DNA from: Saprospiraceae bacterium
GTDB taxonomy: Bacteria > Bacteroidota > Bacteroidia > Chitinophagales > Saprospiraceae
Direction: 5' to 3'
Assembly: GCA_013214355.1 (NCBI GenBank)
Contig: JABSSL010000040.1
Span: 47,180 to 81,408 of the forward strand
Length of the DNA stretch: 34,229 nt
Shown: positions 10,732 to 27,506 of the stretch, piece by piece
Layout: each line of letters starts with the position of its first letter
Position numbering within the stretch: position 1 is the first letter of the stretch
Notes under the pieces: generated by a model
The model's input: only the letters and a program-made list of their open reading frames with translations
Databases searched by the model: none
What the model was told of the DNA's origin: nothing
Translations under genes and position numbers: made by a program

Positions 10732-11220
10732 ATGAATTAAAATTGAGACCTTATAAGAAGTTGAATTCAATTATTACAGGGTCCCGAAGGCATGACTAGC
10801 GTCCTTGCCAATGGGGTAAGATATCTTGAAGGGTCTAGTTACAAAGTTCAAAAATCCCCAAAATATCTAGATAATCGTAATTTTAATCGGGAAAAATCAT
10901 CCACCGGGATGAAAGTTGCCCCTAAAGTACTACCTACAACAACTTCTTTACCAAATTATCCGTTTTGAATAATGCTCGCTGTTTTTGTCTAATCTGTTAC
11001 AAGGATTAGTATTTTCGCCGACGAATAGTCTAGCATTTGCCAAAACCCATACGTTTGTTTAAAAAAGCAAGATAATTCAGCTTTGGATTAAAGGATGTCC
11101 TTTATTTAAGCTTTAGATACGAGCTATATCATCACTCATTCTCCGTTGTATAAATTCTTGGCAAAAGCCAGATAAGGAAAGTGAGGGTTTCAAACTATTT
11201 AATTCAGAAAAAAAATCAAA
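10732..11220. other. Long AT-rich divergent intergenic region
   Basis: 489 bases between the divergently transcribed barrel gene and the protease gene. No convincing ORF, tRNA or known riboswitch fold was recognised. It contains one exact TAnnTTTG box (11050-11057, listed separately) and A-rich sequence directly before the protease ATG. It probably holds both promoters and a long protease leader of about 150 bases. Confidence 0.5.
11050..11057 (+). promoter_or_regulatory. Candidate -7 box TACGTTTG for the S8 protease
   Basis: Exact match to the Bacteroidota TAnnTTTG element upstream of the protease. No TTG was found at the expected -33 distance, and the implied leader is about 155 bases, so this is tentative. 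Confidence 0.3.
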
Positions 11221-12888
11221 ATGAAGATTCAGCAGTTAATTGCTTTTCTACTCTCCAGTGCGCTAGCATTAGTGGGCTTTGCCCAAGAAGAACTTCCTAA
11301 GGATTGGCCGCATTTAGATGCAAAGGCCGATGGCTATCCAGGAATGAGTACCCAGAAAACCTATAAAGAACTCTTACAGGGAAGAACCTCACAAACGATC
11401 GTTGTTGCCGTGATTGACTCCGGAGTTGACAAAGATCACGAAGACTTGAAGTCAGTGATGTGGGTGAATGAGGATGAAATACCGGGTAATGGTATCGACG
11501 ATGATAATAATGGCTATATCGATGATATTCATGGCTGGAACTTTATTGGCGGTAAAAATGGCAAAAACCTGGCTCATGAGAATCTAGAAATGACACGCCT
11601 ATATACCTTGTACAAAAAGAAATACGAAGGGAAAAATAAGTCCGATCTATCCAAGAAGGAAAAAGTGGAATTTGACCAATACGAAGAATATGGAAAGATC
11701 ATAGAAAAGAAAAAGGAAGAATTGGCCCCGCAAGTGATGTTGTATGGAGCAACGGTTGAAGCGTTCAGTGCCCTGGCGCAAGCTATTGGAAAAGAACCGG
11801 ATGATATTACCCTTTCCGACGTAAAGAATTTCAAAACCAAGGATGAGATGCTGGGTAGAGTGCGGGAAGCAGTAGTTGGATTTGTGGAACAAGGACAGGA
11901 CTTTGGAAGTATTTATGCCGAGGTAGAGGAAATCTACGATTACTACTACGGACAAGTTAATTACTACTATAATCCAGAATTTAGCCCAAGAGATATTGTA
12001 GGTGATGATGTCAACAACCCACGTGAGCAATTCTATGGTAACAATGATGTCAAGGGACCAGATAGCGAACACGGGACTCACGTGGCTGGTATTATTGCTG
12101 CTGCTCGTGGAAATGACGTTGGAATGGATGGCGTAGCAGATAATGTTCGGATTATGTCTATTCGTACCGTTCCTGCCGGTGATGAGCGAGACAAAGATGT
12201 GGCAAATGCCATCCGATATGCTGTGGACAACGGAGCCGCCGTCATCAATATGAGCTTTGGTAAGGGAGAATCTCCTAACAAGGGGGTAGTTGATGAAGCC
12301 GTGAAGTATGCGCTGAAAAATGATGTATTACTTGTACACGGATCAGGCAACGATGCCAAAGAAGTAACCTTCGACAATAACTTTCCGAATGATCGGTTTG
12401 ACAAAAAAGGATTTTTGGCCCCTAGGCACGCTAAGAATTGGTTGGAAGTTGGAGCGAGCACCTTCTCTGAGGACGAAAACATAGTAGCCTCTTTTTCCAA
12501 CTACAGTGCCGATAAAGTTGATGTCTTTGCACCGGGAGTTGAAATCTACTCCACAGTTCCAGATAATAAATACAAGAACTTGCAAGGAACTAGTATGGCT
12601 TCTCCTTACGTAGCTGGACTGGCGGCCTTACTTCGTTCCTATTTTCCAACTTTGACAGCAGCGCAGGTGAAATCCATTATCATGGAATCCTCTAGCAAGC
12701 AAAAATACCGAGTCATCAATCCTGAGAATGGAGAGATGGTTCCTTTCACCGATATGTGCATCACCGGAGGCTTGGTCAATACTTACGATGCCGTAAAGCA
12801 AGCCATGGCCACTAAAGGTAAGCGCAAGTTCGTTGGCTTTGGAAAAGGCAAGAAGAAAGCTAAGAAAGGAGACAAAGACCGCGCCTAA
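11221..12888 (+). CDS. Secreted S8 (subtilisin-like) serine peptidase with large insertion
   Basis: Exported serine endopeptidase of 555 residues. Signal peptide at 1-21 (ends GFAQ). The catalytic triad is complete: Asp66 in VAVIDSGVD, His284 in SEHGTHVAGI, Ser458 in GTSMASPYVAG; the oxyanion Asn is Asn377 in HGSGND. After Asp66 there is an Asp/Asn-rich segment (GNGIDDDNNGYIDD) that looks like a calcium loop, then a Lys/Glu-rich, probably helical insert at about 118-255. Asp and His are thus about 218 residues apart, against a few tens in subtilisin. There is no T9SS C-terminal domain; the protein ends in a strongly basic Lys/Gly tail. It stands alone with its own leader and a strong terminator, so it is probably monocistronic. 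Substrate unknown. Confidence 0.9.
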   Translation: MKIQQLIAFLLSSALALVGFAQEELPKDWPHLDAKADGYPGMSTQKTYKELLQGRTSQTIVVAVIDSGVDKDHEDLKSVMWVNEDEIPGNGIDDDNNGYIDDIHGWNFIGGKNGKNLAHENLEMTRLYTLYKKKYEGKNKSDLSKKEKVEFDQYEEYGKIIEKKKEELAPQVMLYGATVEAFSALAQAIGKEPDDITLSDVKNFKTKDEMLGRVREAVVGFVEQGQDFGSIYAEVEEIYDYYYGQVNYYYNPEFSPRDIVGDDVNNPREQFYGNNDVKGPDSEHGTHVAGIIAAARGNDVGMDGVADNVRIMSIRTVPAGDERDKDVANAIRYAVDNGAAVINMSFGKGESPNKGVVDEAVKYALKNDVLLVHGSGNDAKEVTFDNNFPNDRFDKKGFLAPRHAKNWLEVGASTFSEDENIVASFSNYSADKVDVFAPGVEIYSTVPDNKYKNLQGTSMASPYVAGLAALLRSYFPTLTAAQVKSIIMESSSKQKYRVINPENGEMVPFTDMCITGGLVNTYDAVKQAMATKGKRKFVGFGKGKKKAKKGDKDRA

Positions 12889-23393: not shown

Positions 23394-23924
23394 ATGTATA
23401 TGGCAAAAACCTCTTTGCAAGAAGTTGGAAAATTGGGCAAGACCTTTGGCTTTGATGGGACGCTCAAAGTAAAAATCGAAAGCTCATTCCTTGCTCAGCT
23501 AGAAACGGCTGAAGTCGTATTTATAGAAACAGCTGGCAACAAGCTTCCTTATTTCCTGGAAAAAATCTCCCAGGAGAATCCCACCACCATCAAGTTTGAG
23601 GATGTAAATTCCAAAGAGGAGGCTCAGGTCATCTCTGGGCAAAAGCTATTCTTGGAATTGGAAGCGGAGGAAGTCAAGGGGCCATTGGGCATGACTGAAA
23701 TCAGCCACTGGACGGATCTCGTCGATTTTCGATTGGAGGATGAAAAGGCAGGTCCCTTGGGTGTAATAGAAGAAATATATGAGTTGCCCCAGCAATGGAT
23801 GGCCAGTATAGATTACCAAGGAGAAGAAGTATTGATCCCACTCAATGAAGCCTTTGTAAAAGGTATCGATCCCTCAGAAAAAGTAGTGTTTGCGAGCTTG
23901 CCAGAGGGTTTACTAGACCTGTGA
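23394..23924 (+). CDS. rimM: Ribosome maturation factor RimM
   Basis: Cytoplasmic 16S rRNA processing factor that binds ribosomal protein S19 and helps mature the 30S head; 176 residues, the normal size. The N-terminal RimM domain has EVGKLGKTFGFDGTLKVK (about 11-28). The C-terminal PRC-barrel domain has DLVDFRLEDEKAGPLGVIEEI and the closing LIPLNEAFVKGID ... LPEGLLDL. The ATG at 23400 is an equally possible start two codons later. In many bacteria rimM sits with rpsP, trmD and rplS; here none of these is adjacent. Its 3' end overlaps the converging udk gene by 12 bases. Confidence 0.88.
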   Translation: MYMAKTSLQEVGKLGKTFGFDGTLKVKIESSFLAQLETAEVVFIETAGNKLPYFLEKISQENPTTIKFEDVNSKEEAQVISGQKLFLELEAEEVKGPLGMTEISHWTDLVDFRLEDEKAGPLGVIEEIYELPQQWMASIDYQGEEVLIPLNEAFVKGIDPSEKVVFASLPEGLLDL

Positions 23925-24539
23925 TCCATCCAACCTGGCTCGCAGGAATCCTGCTAGGACCTCCATGCCCATATCAAATCCAATATTATTGTTAATGATC
24001 AAATCCGCTTCTTCGATGTAGGGCTTAATGTACTTTTCGAAGGTGGGCAGTACATGATGTTCATATCGGTACAAGACATCATCAAGCGGATAATTTCGTT
24101 CCACTCGATCCCGCTTAATCCGTCTGATTACTTTGAGGTTTTCTTTGGCATGCAGGAAGACCTTCAAGTCCAATAGTTGTTTGATCTTCTTATAATGAAA
24201 AACGAAGAGTCCTTCCACGATTAGGATGGGTGCAGGGTGAAAAGTGAGCATTTGGGGATTTGCCTTTTCATTGTTAAAGGTGTATTCTACCCTTTCTACT
24301 ACTTCCCCTGCAATCAAACGCTGGATGTCCTTGTAGAAGGCTTTTTTATCAATAGACTTGGGACGATCAAAGTTTTTAATGCCGTTGGCATCTATTTCCT
24401 GCATGTCCCGAGGGAAATAGTAGTCATCTTGAGAGATCACGCAAATATCATCCCGCTCAAACCGCTCGCTGAGTTGACGGATGAACGTAGTTTTGCCAGA
24501 CCCGCTACCGCCGGTTATCCCAATAATTAGTGGTTTCAT
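23913..24539 (-). CDS. udk: Uridine kinase
   Basis: Cytoplasmic kinase of pyrimidine salvage, phosphorylating uridine and cytidine; 208 residues, typical. The P-loop is GGSGSGKTT (10-18). The substrate region QDDYYFPRDMQEIDANG and NFDRPKSID is characteristic of uridine kinases, as are EGLFVFHYKKI and RIKRDRVERNYPLDDVLYRYE (lid). The ATG at 24539 is clear. It runs opposite to rimM and overlaps its 3' end. A TAnnTTTG box directly upstream (24557-24564) suggests its own promoter. Confidence 0.93.
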   Translation of the reverse strand: MKPLIIGITGGSGSGKTTFIRQLSERFERDDICVISQDDYYFPRDMQEIDANGIKNFDRPKSIDKKAFYKDIQRLIAGEVVERVEYTFNNEKANPQMLTFHPAPILIVEGLFVFHYKKIKQLLDLKVFLHAKENLKVIRRIKRDRVERNYPLDDVLYRYEHHVLPTFEKYIKPYIEEADLIINNNIGFDMGMEVLAGFLRARLDGSQV

Positions 24540-24556
24540 GTGCCAGTATTATGGCG

Positions 24557-24591
24557 CAAAAATAAAAATATTCTTCCCGTCAAAGAATATT
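24557..24591 (-). terminator. Hairpin terminator of the histidine kinase, overlapping the udk promoter box
   Basis: AATATTCTT (24567-24575) and AAGAATATT (24583-24591) form a perfect 9-bp stem with a 7-base loop. On the minus strand it is followed by TTTTATTTTTG, a T-rich tract, as in an intrinsic terminator for the kinase ending at 24630. The same tract contains TATTTTTG (24564 down to 24557), an exact TAnnTTTG box 17 bases before the udk ATG, with TTTG 16 bases upstream of it. The segment may thus end one transcript and start the next. Confidence 0.6.
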
Positions 24592-24629
24592 CGACAGGAC
24601 ATCCTGCTGAAGATGTTTTTAAATCATCT

Positions 24630-26651
24630 CTAGAGTACCGATTGTACCGGTAAAAAGGAAAGTGAAAAAGAAAATGTGGTACCTTTTCCAGCCTGTGATG
24701 CTACGGAAATGGATCCGCCATGACGTTCAACCACCTTTTTGCAGATGGCTAATCCTATACCTGCACCTTGGTAATTTCGTCCGTCATGGGCTCGCTTGAA
24801 GACCTCAAAAATCTCTTCCTGTTGCGATTCTGGAATGCCTATCCCATTATCCTGAACGGAAAAGTTCCAACGATCTTCTCCTTCCTGACATCTTATCGTT
24901 ATTGCTGGGGTAGTACCTGGGGCTACAAATTTTATTCCATTGGAAATCAAGTTTTGAAAGAGTTGAACCAATTGAATCTTGTTCCCTATGATCTGCTTTG
25001 GAATGCCTTCCAGCTGGATGCTAGCACCTGTAACTCGGAGTTTTTCCTGCAGGTTATAGCGCACCAAGGTCATAATGTCATCAAAATCAACGTCTACCAT
25101 CCGCGAAGCTCCCCGGCCAATCCGAGAATATTCCAGTAGACCTTGAATGAGTTGTTCCATCCTCAGTACCCCTAGGTCGGCATATGAAAGATATTCTTTA
25201 ACGTTTTCCGCCACTTCGGGGCCAATCCGCTCCTTGATGAGATTCAGATATCCTTTGACCGTACGTAGGGGCTCTTGCAAATCATGAGAAGCCACATAAG
25301 CAAAGCGTTCTAGGTCATGATTGGAACTCTTGAGTTCTTCGATGGTAATCTTCAGTTGCCCTTGAGCTTGTTCCAGGTCGAGCGTACGCTGCTCTAGCAG
25401 AGCCTTGGAGGCCTTCAGTTCATTTTCCGCTTTGATCCGGGCGCTGATATCTCTGACCGCAGCGGTGAACAGATGTCGCCCTTGAAACTCGAGATCTGAT
25501 ATATTTATCTCTAGGGGGAATACCTGGCCATCCTTTCTTAGGCCTTCCATAATGACATTGGTATTCAACACTTTTGATTTTCGGGTCCCTAAATACCTGT
25601 TCATGCCACTGCTATGTCTAGATCGATAGTGCTCTGGCATGAGAACGGTGAGATCCTTGCCGATGAGTTCGGCTGAAGTATATCCCCAAATTTCCTCCAC
25701 CTCTTTGTTGATCATTATGATCTCACTCTTGTCATTTGCAGTGACAATGCCGTCCTTTACTGCGTTCATTACTTCTCTTAGCTGTAGATAAGCTTCTTCA
25801 CTAGCCTTCTGGGCTTTTCGAACCTCCGCTTGTGCTTGCTGTAAGGCGATATTCCGTTCGCCCAACTGTTGGTTTAGATCCTCTAGAAAACTCACTTTCT
25901 CCAACAGGGTGGCAGAAAGCTGGTGTTTAGTCAGAAGTCCAATTTTATCAGTATCTAGAAATTGCTGGGGGATAATGGAGATGATGATGGGAAAAGTATT
26001 CAGTAATTTGTAGCGATTGGCAATATCTTGATAGGCATTATCATAGACTCTTTGGGTAAAGCGAGCACCCATTTTTTGTTCTAGGCTACTAGCAATCTGC
26101 TGACTCACATCTGATAAATACTGCGGTGTCATTGGGAGTGGTGGGATCTCCTCCAAGAGATAAGGAAAAGCCCTTTCCACGTCTGGAAGGTCATCTACCC
26201 ATTGTAGAGAGTGCTCGAAGAAGTGATCTTCCGCTTTCCCCAGAATATTTATAGCACCGCGAAGAATAGCGCTTAAGAAGGTTTTACCCAGAAGAACATT
26301 CTGCTCTTTTTCTGGAAGGAAGATCAGGTTGAAATGTGGAAGTTCTACCAGTTTGGGAAACCTAGACCGAACGGCATCACGGAGATCTGCTTTTGTTTTT
26401 CGATTGGGTTTATACTCAGAGATGCGTTGCTCGTGATTCAAATATAGGGCCGACACCTGCTCGATCATCTGTTCTGCAGGTAGCTTAAAATATTCTCTAT
26501 CAAACTGTTGAATAGGACTTGATAGTAGCGGTTGCGCCGACTGTGATAGCAAGAACTCATGTAAAAGTTCGATCTCCCAGAATACAGGTGCCTTTGCCTT
26601 CGGAGTACCAAGGACCAGGCGTTTAATCCAACTTAGCGCTTTTGATAACAT
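24630..26651 (-). CDS. Soluble PAS-domain sensor histidine kinase with unrecognised N-terminal domain
   Basis: 673-residue signalling kinase with no membrane helix, so cytoplasmic. Residues 1-245 form a mostly helical domain I do not recognise. A coiled coil (about 250-290) leads to a PAS domain (about 292-405) of FixL-like type with LMPEHYRSRHSSGMNRYLG; His346 and Arg352 line up with FixL His200 and Arg206. A second coiled coil (405-445) precedes the dimerisation helix with phosphoacceptor His456 in VASHDLQEPLRTVKGYL. The ATPase domain has N567/N571 in QNLISNGIKF, DNGIGIP (601-607), GAGIGLAICKKV (629-640) and GKGTTFSF. All kinase motifs are intact. No response regulator is adjacent, so it is an orphan. 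It has a good promoter at 26676-26710. Confidence 0.92.
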   Translation of the reverse strand: MLSKALSWIKRLVLGTPKAKAPVFWEIELLHEFLLSQSAQPLLSSPIQQFDREYFKLPAEQMIEQVSALYLNHEQRISEYKPNRKTKADLRDAVRSRFPKLVELPHFNLIFLPEKEQNVLLGKTFLSAILRGAINILGKAEDHFFEHSLQWVDDLPDVERAFPYLLEEIPPLPMTPQYLSDVSQQIASSLEQKMGARFTQRVYDNAYQDIANRYKLLNTFPIIISIIPQQFLDTDKIGLLTKHQLSATLLEKVSFLEDLNQQLGERNIALQQAQAEVRKAQKASEEAYLQLREVMNAVKDGIVTANDKSEIIMINKEVEEIWGYTSAELIGKDLTVLMPEHYRSRHSSGMNRYLGTRKSKVLNTNVIMEGLRKDGQVFPLEINISDLEFQGRHLFTAAVRDISARIKAENELKASKALLEQRTLDLEQAQGQLKITIEELKSSNHDLERFAYVASHDLQEPLRTVKGYLNLIKERIGPEVAENVKEYLSYADLGVLRMEQLIQGLLEYSRIGRGASRMVDVDFDDIMTLVRYNLQEKLRVTGASIQLEGIPKQIIGNKIQLVQLFQNLISNGIKFVAPGTTPAITIRCQEGEDRWNFSVQDNGIGIPESQQEEIFEVFKRAHDGRNYQGAGIGLAICKKVVERHGGSISVASQAGKGTTFSFSLSFLPVQSVL

Positions 26652-26675: not shown

Positions 26676-26710
26676 CAAACTTAAAGTAAACACCTCAGTA
26701 ATTTGGCAAA
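26676..26710 (-). promoter_or_regulatory. Promoter of the histidine kinase gene (TTTG-N23-TAAGTTTG)
   Basis: On the minus strand: TTTG (26710-26707), 23-base spacer, then the exact TAnnTTTG box TAAGTTTG (26683-26676). It lies 24 bases before the ATG at 26651, giving a leader of about 18 bases. This is the best full match to the Bacteroidota promoter in the window. Confidence 0.55.
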
Positions 26711-26813: not shown

Positions 26814-27242
26814 CTACCCACTCTTGCTTACTTTATAGATTCGGTAAAAACCAATGGCAGATAATCCCCAGGTGATGATCAGTGCAATGAACCAGGCAGT
26901 ATTACCTAAGAAGTGGCCTAAGGTATCTCGAAAAACGTCATAATGGAAGATGTGCTGAATCTGCATAGCGATATGTCCAACTGCCATGACCAGAAATCCC
27001 CAAGCCAAATAGTTCATTCCTTGTCCGAAAATTCCACCCTTTAAGGCTCCCGCCGTTCGGAAACTGTAATATACACATAAAAAGAGAAAGGGGAGTTCTA
27101 AAACGCCGAACCAAAATACACTGTCAAGTCCTTCTGATGTGCCACCGTGATCGTGAATTTCATTCCCCTGTGCAGCTAGTAAGAATGGTAAACATAGGCA
27201 CACTAATAGTAGGAACGAACAAAGCTTGTTTCTTTGTGTCAT
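26814..27242 (-). CDS. Small four-helix membrane protein with conserved-looking histidines, unknown function
   Basis: 142 residues. A cleavable signal peptide or first helix at 1-24 (ends LLAAQG) is followed by HDHGG, then helices at about 42-62, 76-98 and 112-135. Histidines cluster at HDHGG (about 31-33), in and after the third segment (GHIAMQIQHIFHYD) and in LGHFLG. Membrane His in this arrangement could bind haem or metal, but I do not recognise the family. It reads toward the histidine kinase on the same strand with a 162-base gap that contains the kinase promoter, so co-transcription is possible but not required. An inverted repeat (27281-27298) lies upstream. Confidence 0.65.
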   Translation of the reverse strand: MTQRNKLCSFLLLVCLCLPFLLAAQGNEIHDHGGTSEGLDSVFWFGVLELPFLFLCVYYSFRTAGALKGGIFGQGMNYLAWGFLVMAVGHIAMQIQHIFHYDVFRDTLGHFLGNTAWFIALIITWGLSAIGFYRIYKVSKSG

Positions 27243-27280
27243 TATACATTGAATTTGAAATATGAACGATACATGTGCTT

Positions 27281-27298
27281 ATCTGACAAGGGTCAGAT
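27281..27298. promoter_or_regulatory. Inverted repeat upstream of the small membrane protein
   Basis: ATCTGAC (27281-27287) and GTCAGAT (27292-27298) form a perfect 7-bp inverted repeat with spacer AAGG, 39-56 bases before the ATG at 27242. It could be an operator or a short hairpin; no TAnnTTTG box was found nearby. Confidence 0.4.
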
Positions 27299-27506
27299 GA
27301 TAATACGATTGCGGGTGCACATGGTTTCATATCCAAAAAATTAGATATGAGTGGCGTGCAGGTATCTTAGAAGGGACTTTTTACTAAGATAGGCCAAAAA
27401 GCCTAAATAGCAAAGAATTGTGATATACTATCGCCTGAAACACAAGTGATAAGTAGACCTAGGCTAGATTTGCTTAGTTCAACAATAACAGCACATTTTC
27501 GTAAGA

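Follow-up and report, generated by a model that had tools for sequence, protein, structure and literature searches.

In the window analysed here, a 34,229-nucleotide stretch of contig JABSSL010000040.1 from a Saprospiraceae bacterium, a histidine kinase gene and the uridine kinase gene udk are arranged in tandem on the minus strand with 90 nt between them (kinase end 24630, udk start 24539; Table 1). A first-pass annotation had placed a hairpin and a T-rich tract in this gap, with an exact TAnnTTTG promoter box inside the tract, and had proposed that the segment ends the kinase transcript and starts that of udk. Can one piece of DNA be terminator and promoter at once at this locus? The elements themselves were confirmed, letters and coordinates alike: the AU-rich inverted repeat, the tract, the exact box TATTTTTG and the 17 nt that separate it from the udk ATG (24556-24540) are all present, and the minus-strand stretch 24592-24557 reads GAATATTCTTTGACGGGAAGAATATTTTTATTTTTG.

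A simple model would be that udk has its core promoter in this segment, a promoter of the Bacteroidota housekeeping (sigma-ABfr) class, with the hairpin as a by-product and at most a weak, leaky terminator. We regard this model as probable. It is based on where the box lies and how well it is conserved, and on a hairpin that is weaker in two congeners and missing from a third. The surrounding 78 nt would be conserved as DNA, probably for promoter and regulator contacts. The hairpin would form as GAATATTC near -33 and GAATATTT in the spacer make a dyad, and whatever termination of the kinase transcript it causes would be weak and leaky.

Table 1. Features of the kinase-udk region, all on the minus strand of the window.
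Feature	Position	Remarks
udk, uridine kinase	23913..24539	PF00485, E 4.6e-39; ATG at 24539
Predicted 13-nt udk leader	24540..24552	+1 at A24552 if F. johnsoniae spacing (G of box at -5) applies
Block identical in three congeners	24540..24573	from inside the 3' arm of hairpin A to the base before the ATG; 34/34 columns
-7 element TATTTTTG of the udk promoter	24557..24564	exact TAnnTTTG match, conserved before udk
Hairpin A, inverted repeat AATATTCTT/AAGAATATT	24567..24591	9 bp, adjoins T tract
Hairpin B, CCTGTCGAA/TTTGACGGG	24576..24598	overlaps hairpin A, more stable; isolated fold -9.6 kcal/mol
GAATATTC, where the -33 region is expected	24585..24592	separated from the box by 20 nt; 7/8 columns conserved in three congeners (source, G001, G002)
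Conserved block ATCTT.AG.AGGATGTCCT, upstream of the -33 region	24596..24614	17/19 columns identical in three congeners (source, G001, G002)
PAS/HisKA/HATPase_c histidine kinase	24630..26651	Pfam; upstream of udk, same strand

The promoter box and its conservation

In published extracts, sigma-ABfr promoters carry TTTG at -33 and TAnnTTTG at -7 (TAHHTTTG in F. johnsoniae), and the box before udk is an exact match with a non-G base at both free positions. The AT-rich upstream region, the short predicted leader and the poorly defined -33 region are further points of likeness, whereas the udk site differs in having no TTTG at the usual -33 spacing and in an unusually conserved spacer. The motif shows no excess over the whole window (28 seen, 27.34 expected). 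Its distribution around genes in 1.89 of the 11.19 Mb of the source genome favors the sense strand: within 100 nt of gene starts, 92 sense and 24 antisense copies were found in tandem gaps (684 genes), and 119 sense and 38 antisense copies in divergent gaps (438 genes). Convergent gaps, counted in a smaller sample, hold 10 copies on both strands together compared to 15.15 expected. The form present before udk, TATTTTTG, is the most frequent one near starts, accounting for 14 of 92 boxes in a smaller sample of the source genome.

The position of the box relative to udk was compared across relatives and named records, many titled Saprospiraceae; the named records are the best 80 of at least 438 matches, a limit that applies to all counts of udk loci given here. 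From 111 loci (L001-L031 and L135-L214), 92 had the start and at least 150 nt upstream (19 dropped), and 84 of these were distinct (8 dropped). An exact box lies within 60 nt of the udk start in 48 of the 84, mostly at 10-29 nt, and is absent from that interval in the other 36; shuffled controls gave a mean of 3.05 and a maximum of 10 in 200 shuffles, and the antisense strand gave 10. Within the genus, TATTTTTG itself is retained in the three further genomes examined (G001, G002 and G003). In F. johnsoniae the -7 element is numbered with its T at -12 and its G at -5, and the -33 motif is much less evident (PMC6847099, excerpt). Judged from the position of the box, with TATTTTTG taken as the -7 element, the probable start of udk transcription is A24552, which would leave a 13-nt leader before the ATG. 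Upstream of the box, the bases at spacer 20 are TTC and a TTTG occurs at spacer 16; the absence of TTG at the usual -33 spacing counts against the promoter model. In the source genome TTG peaks at spacer 20, though only slightly (11 of 133 boxes), which marks the -33 motif as weak.

The distribution of the box among relatives also bears on whether the kinase and udk are co-transcribed, the box then being a minor internal promoter. The order S9 peptidase, g142, kinase, udk is common to all four genomes examined of the genus, and no strong terminator was found between kinase and udk in the source genome or in G003, as co-transcription would have it. Loci of other genera nevertheless keep the box close to udk, although the kinase found no match in the roughly 1.5-kb flanks of udk loci L004-L030. 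We consider co-transcription with a minor internal promoter improbable.

Conservation of the DNA around the box points in the same direction as the model of a core promoter. Among the three congeners (the source genome, G001 and G002), all 34 columns directly upstream of the ATG are identical, compared to only 11 of 62 fourfold-degenerate sites in udk. Together with the sense enrichment across the genome and the 48 box-bearing udk loci, this upholds the first-pass assignment of the box as a real, conserved -7 element, and the udk promoter is of a known kind, one more well conserved Bacteroidota housekeeping promoter. In the 44 nt preceding the core, 30 columns are identical in the same three genomes. 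G003, a more distant genome, keeps the box, CCATAATACT and part of the spacer, and has no hairpin abutting the T tract. The GA.TATTC element occupies the place expected of a -33 element, which would be enough to explain why it is conserved. The spacer CGGG.AGAATATT is more conserved than a -7/-33 promoter needs, a point against the promoter model.

The conserved 78 nt may be mainly an operator or activator region, with no role for the RNA hairpins. In that case AGGATGTCCT and the GAATATT repeats, with starts 19 nt apart, would be candidate protein sites regulating udk, and the block ATCTT.AG.AGGATGTCCT is a possible regulator site. The agreement of the upstream columns compared to the fourfold sites speaks for such a region, as do the GAATATT repeats, about two helical turns apart, and the failure of any demonstrable pairing to account for the conservation. 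On the other side, the combination GAATATTC-N11-GAATATT is exact nowhere else in the genome (two further places have one mismatch), and AGGATGTCCT has nine copies in the 1.89-Mb sample, one other of them intergenic. Moreover, a second gap of the locus, before g142, is equally conserved (185 of 272 columns agree in the three congeners, as against 15 of 98 in the g255-rimM gap), so that nothing special is needed for the conservation of the udk gap. The operator reading is held tentatively, at somewhat less than even chances; it overlaps with the promoter model, and the two are not exclusive.

A repeated operator was considered separately and is unsupported by the copy counts of GAATATTC-N11-GAATATT and AGGATGTCCT. 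A coding explanation for the conserved stretch (frame ATG TCC ... TAA, in frame with udk) was ruled out, as its fourth codon is a stop in G002 and most source/G001 changes, read off the alignment, fall outside third codon positions (two of eight fall there). An Rfam search of the window returned no RNA family at gathering scores, and a loose-threshold RNA family search of 24000-25000 returned one chance-level match (24619-24689, E 0.86). The other intergenic copy of AGGATGTCCT lies in the same window at 11092-11101 on the plus strand, before an ORF at 11221 (position 58270, zero-based, of the joined stretch L032-L035), and may be coincidence.

Two mutually exclusive hairpins

Intrinsic terminators consist of a stable, usually G+C-rich stem followed directly by a U tract. 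The arms of hairpin A, AATATTCTT (24591-24583) and AAGAATATT (24575-24567), pair perfectly around the loop TGACGGG, and the tail TTTATTTTTG, the last eight bases of which are TATTTTTG, follows the stem directly. The stem is neither stable nor rich in G+C, with one G-C pair in nine, and the structure is not kept in relatives with the same gene order. Its TransTerm-style score is -4.5, its tail score 4.05 and its isolated fold -6.9 kcal/mol. The udk site therefore shares with an ordinary intrinsic terminator the direct passage from stem to T-rich tract, but differs from it in an AU-rich, weak stem, a tract interrupted by A, a competing hairpin and poor conservation.

On the reading of a true dual element, transcription of the kinase would end at the AU-rich hairpin with its T tract, and that tract would double as the udk -7 element. 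The geometry of stem, tract and tail just described is what this reading expects, and its occurrence is not easily put down to chance: with the 3' arm and the tract fixed, a hairpin at least as strong arose in only 0.275% of 4000 shuffled upstream sequences (P about 0.003). Comparison with the congeners tells against it. The score falls from -4.5 in the source genome to -2.2 in G002, which retains a reduced stem, and to -0.4 in G001, and at +5.1 in G003 the hairpin is absent, all with gene order unchanged. The corresponding fixed-tract P values are 0.0095 for G002, 0.063 for G001 and 0.40 for G003, values that are not independent of one another because the genomes share ancestry. When the positions that vary between species were resampled, with five stretches of sequence, hairpin A was unusually stable in the source genome (P 0.003-0.021), and no more stable than controls in G001 (P 0.27-0.93) and G002 (P 0.35-0.72).

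Nor does the alignment argue for selection on the helix. Hairpin A with one further G-U pair is paired in 90% of cells across the three species, and its core TATTC/GAATA is retained in all of them; seven of the ten pairs are invariant, and none has changed on both sides. The hairpin bases are thus conserved, but not because of any demonstrable pairing.

A second hairpin, missing from the first-pass annotation, competes with the first. Hairpins A and B are mutually exclusive, and the minimum-energy fold of the whole stretch contains B (-18.7 kcal/mol, compared to -16.9 kcal/mol with A forced). In the growing RNA, B is completed first; afterwards A is the minimum-energy fold for six lengths, those with the 3' end in the first part of the tract, at a margin of 0.1 kcal/mol (-16.4 versus -16.3), and then B again. 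With margins so small and switching, energies cannot decide between the two. Early completion and greater stability of B in the full stretch nevertheless count against a dual element. B itself ends 7 nt before the T run, a placement unlike that of the usual terminator stem. As a conserved structure it was rejected: with one further pair it is paired in 80% of cells in the three species, its two double-changed pairs are not above shuffles, and the summed fold energy of the three species gave P 0.17 against column permutation.

Terminator tails and boxes across the genome

Strength of hairpin A can be judged against other 3' ends of the same genome. For these counts, genes were called by a home-made program and hairpins scored in TransTerm style with ungapped stems, over 1,888,598 bases of the 11.19 Mb (17%). 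In a first sample, with cut-offs of -6 for the score and 3.0 for the tail, terminator-like hairpins followed 28 of 161 convergent and 20 of 376 tandem 3' ends, compared to 0.3 and 0, respectively, in shuffled controls. Such hairpins are real as a class in the source genome, a point in favor of a dual element. The larger sample gave candidates at 75 of 685 tandem and 53 of 291 convergent 3' ends, with median scores of -8.5 and -12.2 and median stem GC of 0.50 and 0.57, respectively. Hairpin A, at -4.5, is among the weaker ones: 21 of the 75 tandem candidates (hairpin A counted in) and 4 of the 53 convergent ones score no better. The role first proposed for hairpin A, ending transcription of the kinase, is thereby made doubtful, its stem being weak and AU-rich beside other candidates of its own genome and its score poor in the two congeners, or the structure gone in the third, that keep kinase and udk in order. 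Among four related species, hairpin A is well formed in a single one, and it is unlikely to be a strong stop for the kinase.

The broader proposal was that terminator T tracts, naturally similar to TAnnTTTG, could be reused as promoter boxes in compact genomes of the phylum. At 11.19 Mb, the source genome is not compact. Among the larger sample of candidates, the box occurs in the tails of 6 of 75 tandem hairpins (1.59 expected from shuffled tails) and of none of 53 convergent ones (0.79 expected), a difference with p=0.041 that is uncorrected and the best of five cut-offs, and the udk site is itself among the six. The four stricter cuts gave p values of 0.12 to 0.24; for hairpins of -6 or better, the box is found in 2 of 46 tandem tails (1.05 expected) and in none of 47 convergent tails. 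The list of six takes only the best hairpin per 3' end, and a rule admitting any hairpin, applied to a smaller sample, changes one member. In only two of the six, one of them the udk site, is the next start within 100 nt. The six tandem tails are a weak hint for reuse, and speak for a dual element at udk.

Divergent gaps provide a fair control for a count that starts from the boxes, because no transcript enters them from behind. A hairpin tail contains the box in 3 of 116 cases in tandem gaps and in 1 of 148 in divergent gaps (p=0.32). Looser cuts gave 8 versus 8 and 4 versus 5, and others 2 versus 1 and, at a stricter cut, 2 versus 0 (the last with p=0.19). In G055, a 2.9-Mb genome of the same order sampled over 400 kb, the box occurs in 1 of 14 tandem and 0 of 7 convergent terminator tails, and boxes lie in a tail in 1 of 30 tandem and 0 of 47 divergent cases. 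The empty convergent tails and the non-significant box-centred comparison do not bear out the idea that T tracts naturally become boxes; routine reuse is not demonstrated by a count covering 17% of the genome, within which a small effect is possible. With this box-centred test not significant, the hairpin weak or absent in congeners and B in competition, a true dual element at udk is unlikely.

Three of the five other box-holding tandem tails (L082, L045 and L036, on contigs C200, C90 and C1, at the 3' ends of called genes 32, 32 and 65) have the box 168, 205 and 66 nt, respectively, before the next called start, and two of the three have much stronger stems than the udk site (-14.6 and -10.4). 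They are better candidates than the udk site for a dual element.

Comparison with known arrangements and the neighboring locus

An overlap of terminator and promoter between operons is known from tufB-secE of Salmonella, where its manipulation affects expression and fitness (PMC7055797, excerpt). The udk site would resemble it in consisting of tandem units whose end and start signals share DNA, and differs from it in that the hairpin is poorly conserved and the terminator putative. A dual role at udk is possible, and would be an instance of an arrangement already described. No report of such an overlap in Bacteroidota was found among the titles and abstract openings listed by searches of open-access literature, and the transcriptome papers on F. 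psychrophilum and B. thetaiotaomicron, in the portions available, describe a promoter motif and predicted terminators and leave an overlap of the two undescribed.

Were a dual role true, the site would be a test case for recycling of polymerase from terminator to promoter, which has been reported in single-molecule studies (PMC6978380 and others, in excerpt). Polymerase stopped on the T tract in the source species would be released at the -7 box, rebind sigma and restart as the udk transcript, so that kinase transcription would feed udk by recycling rather than read-through; the more stable upstream hairpin B might act as an antiterminator that sets the ratio. We consider such a course of events very improbable. 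The model of a core udk promoter with an incidental hairpin is preferred.

Several further features of the locus were observed. At the other end of udk, rimM on the plus strand and udk on the minus strand overlap tail to tail by 12 nt (23913-23924), leaving no space for a terminator between them; the two also overlap in G001, as judged by the ends of tblastn matches. Upstream of the kinase, TAAGTTTG at 26676-26683 on the minus strand, 24 nt ahead of the ATG of that gene, may serve as its promoter; G002 has TCAGTTTG instead. Next to it, g142 is a 142-residue ORF (26814-27242) with no Pfam match. Between g142 and the S9 peptidase gene lie about 200 nt (27243-27440, minus strand) that are highly conserved in G001 and G002 and largely diverged in G003. 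They contain the repeats CATATC/GATATG and TCTGAC/GTCAGA, the latter between GTGC/GCAC arms (CATGTGC/GCACATG in the source genome), and this region, which had no Rfam match at gathering scores, may be a structured leader RNA.
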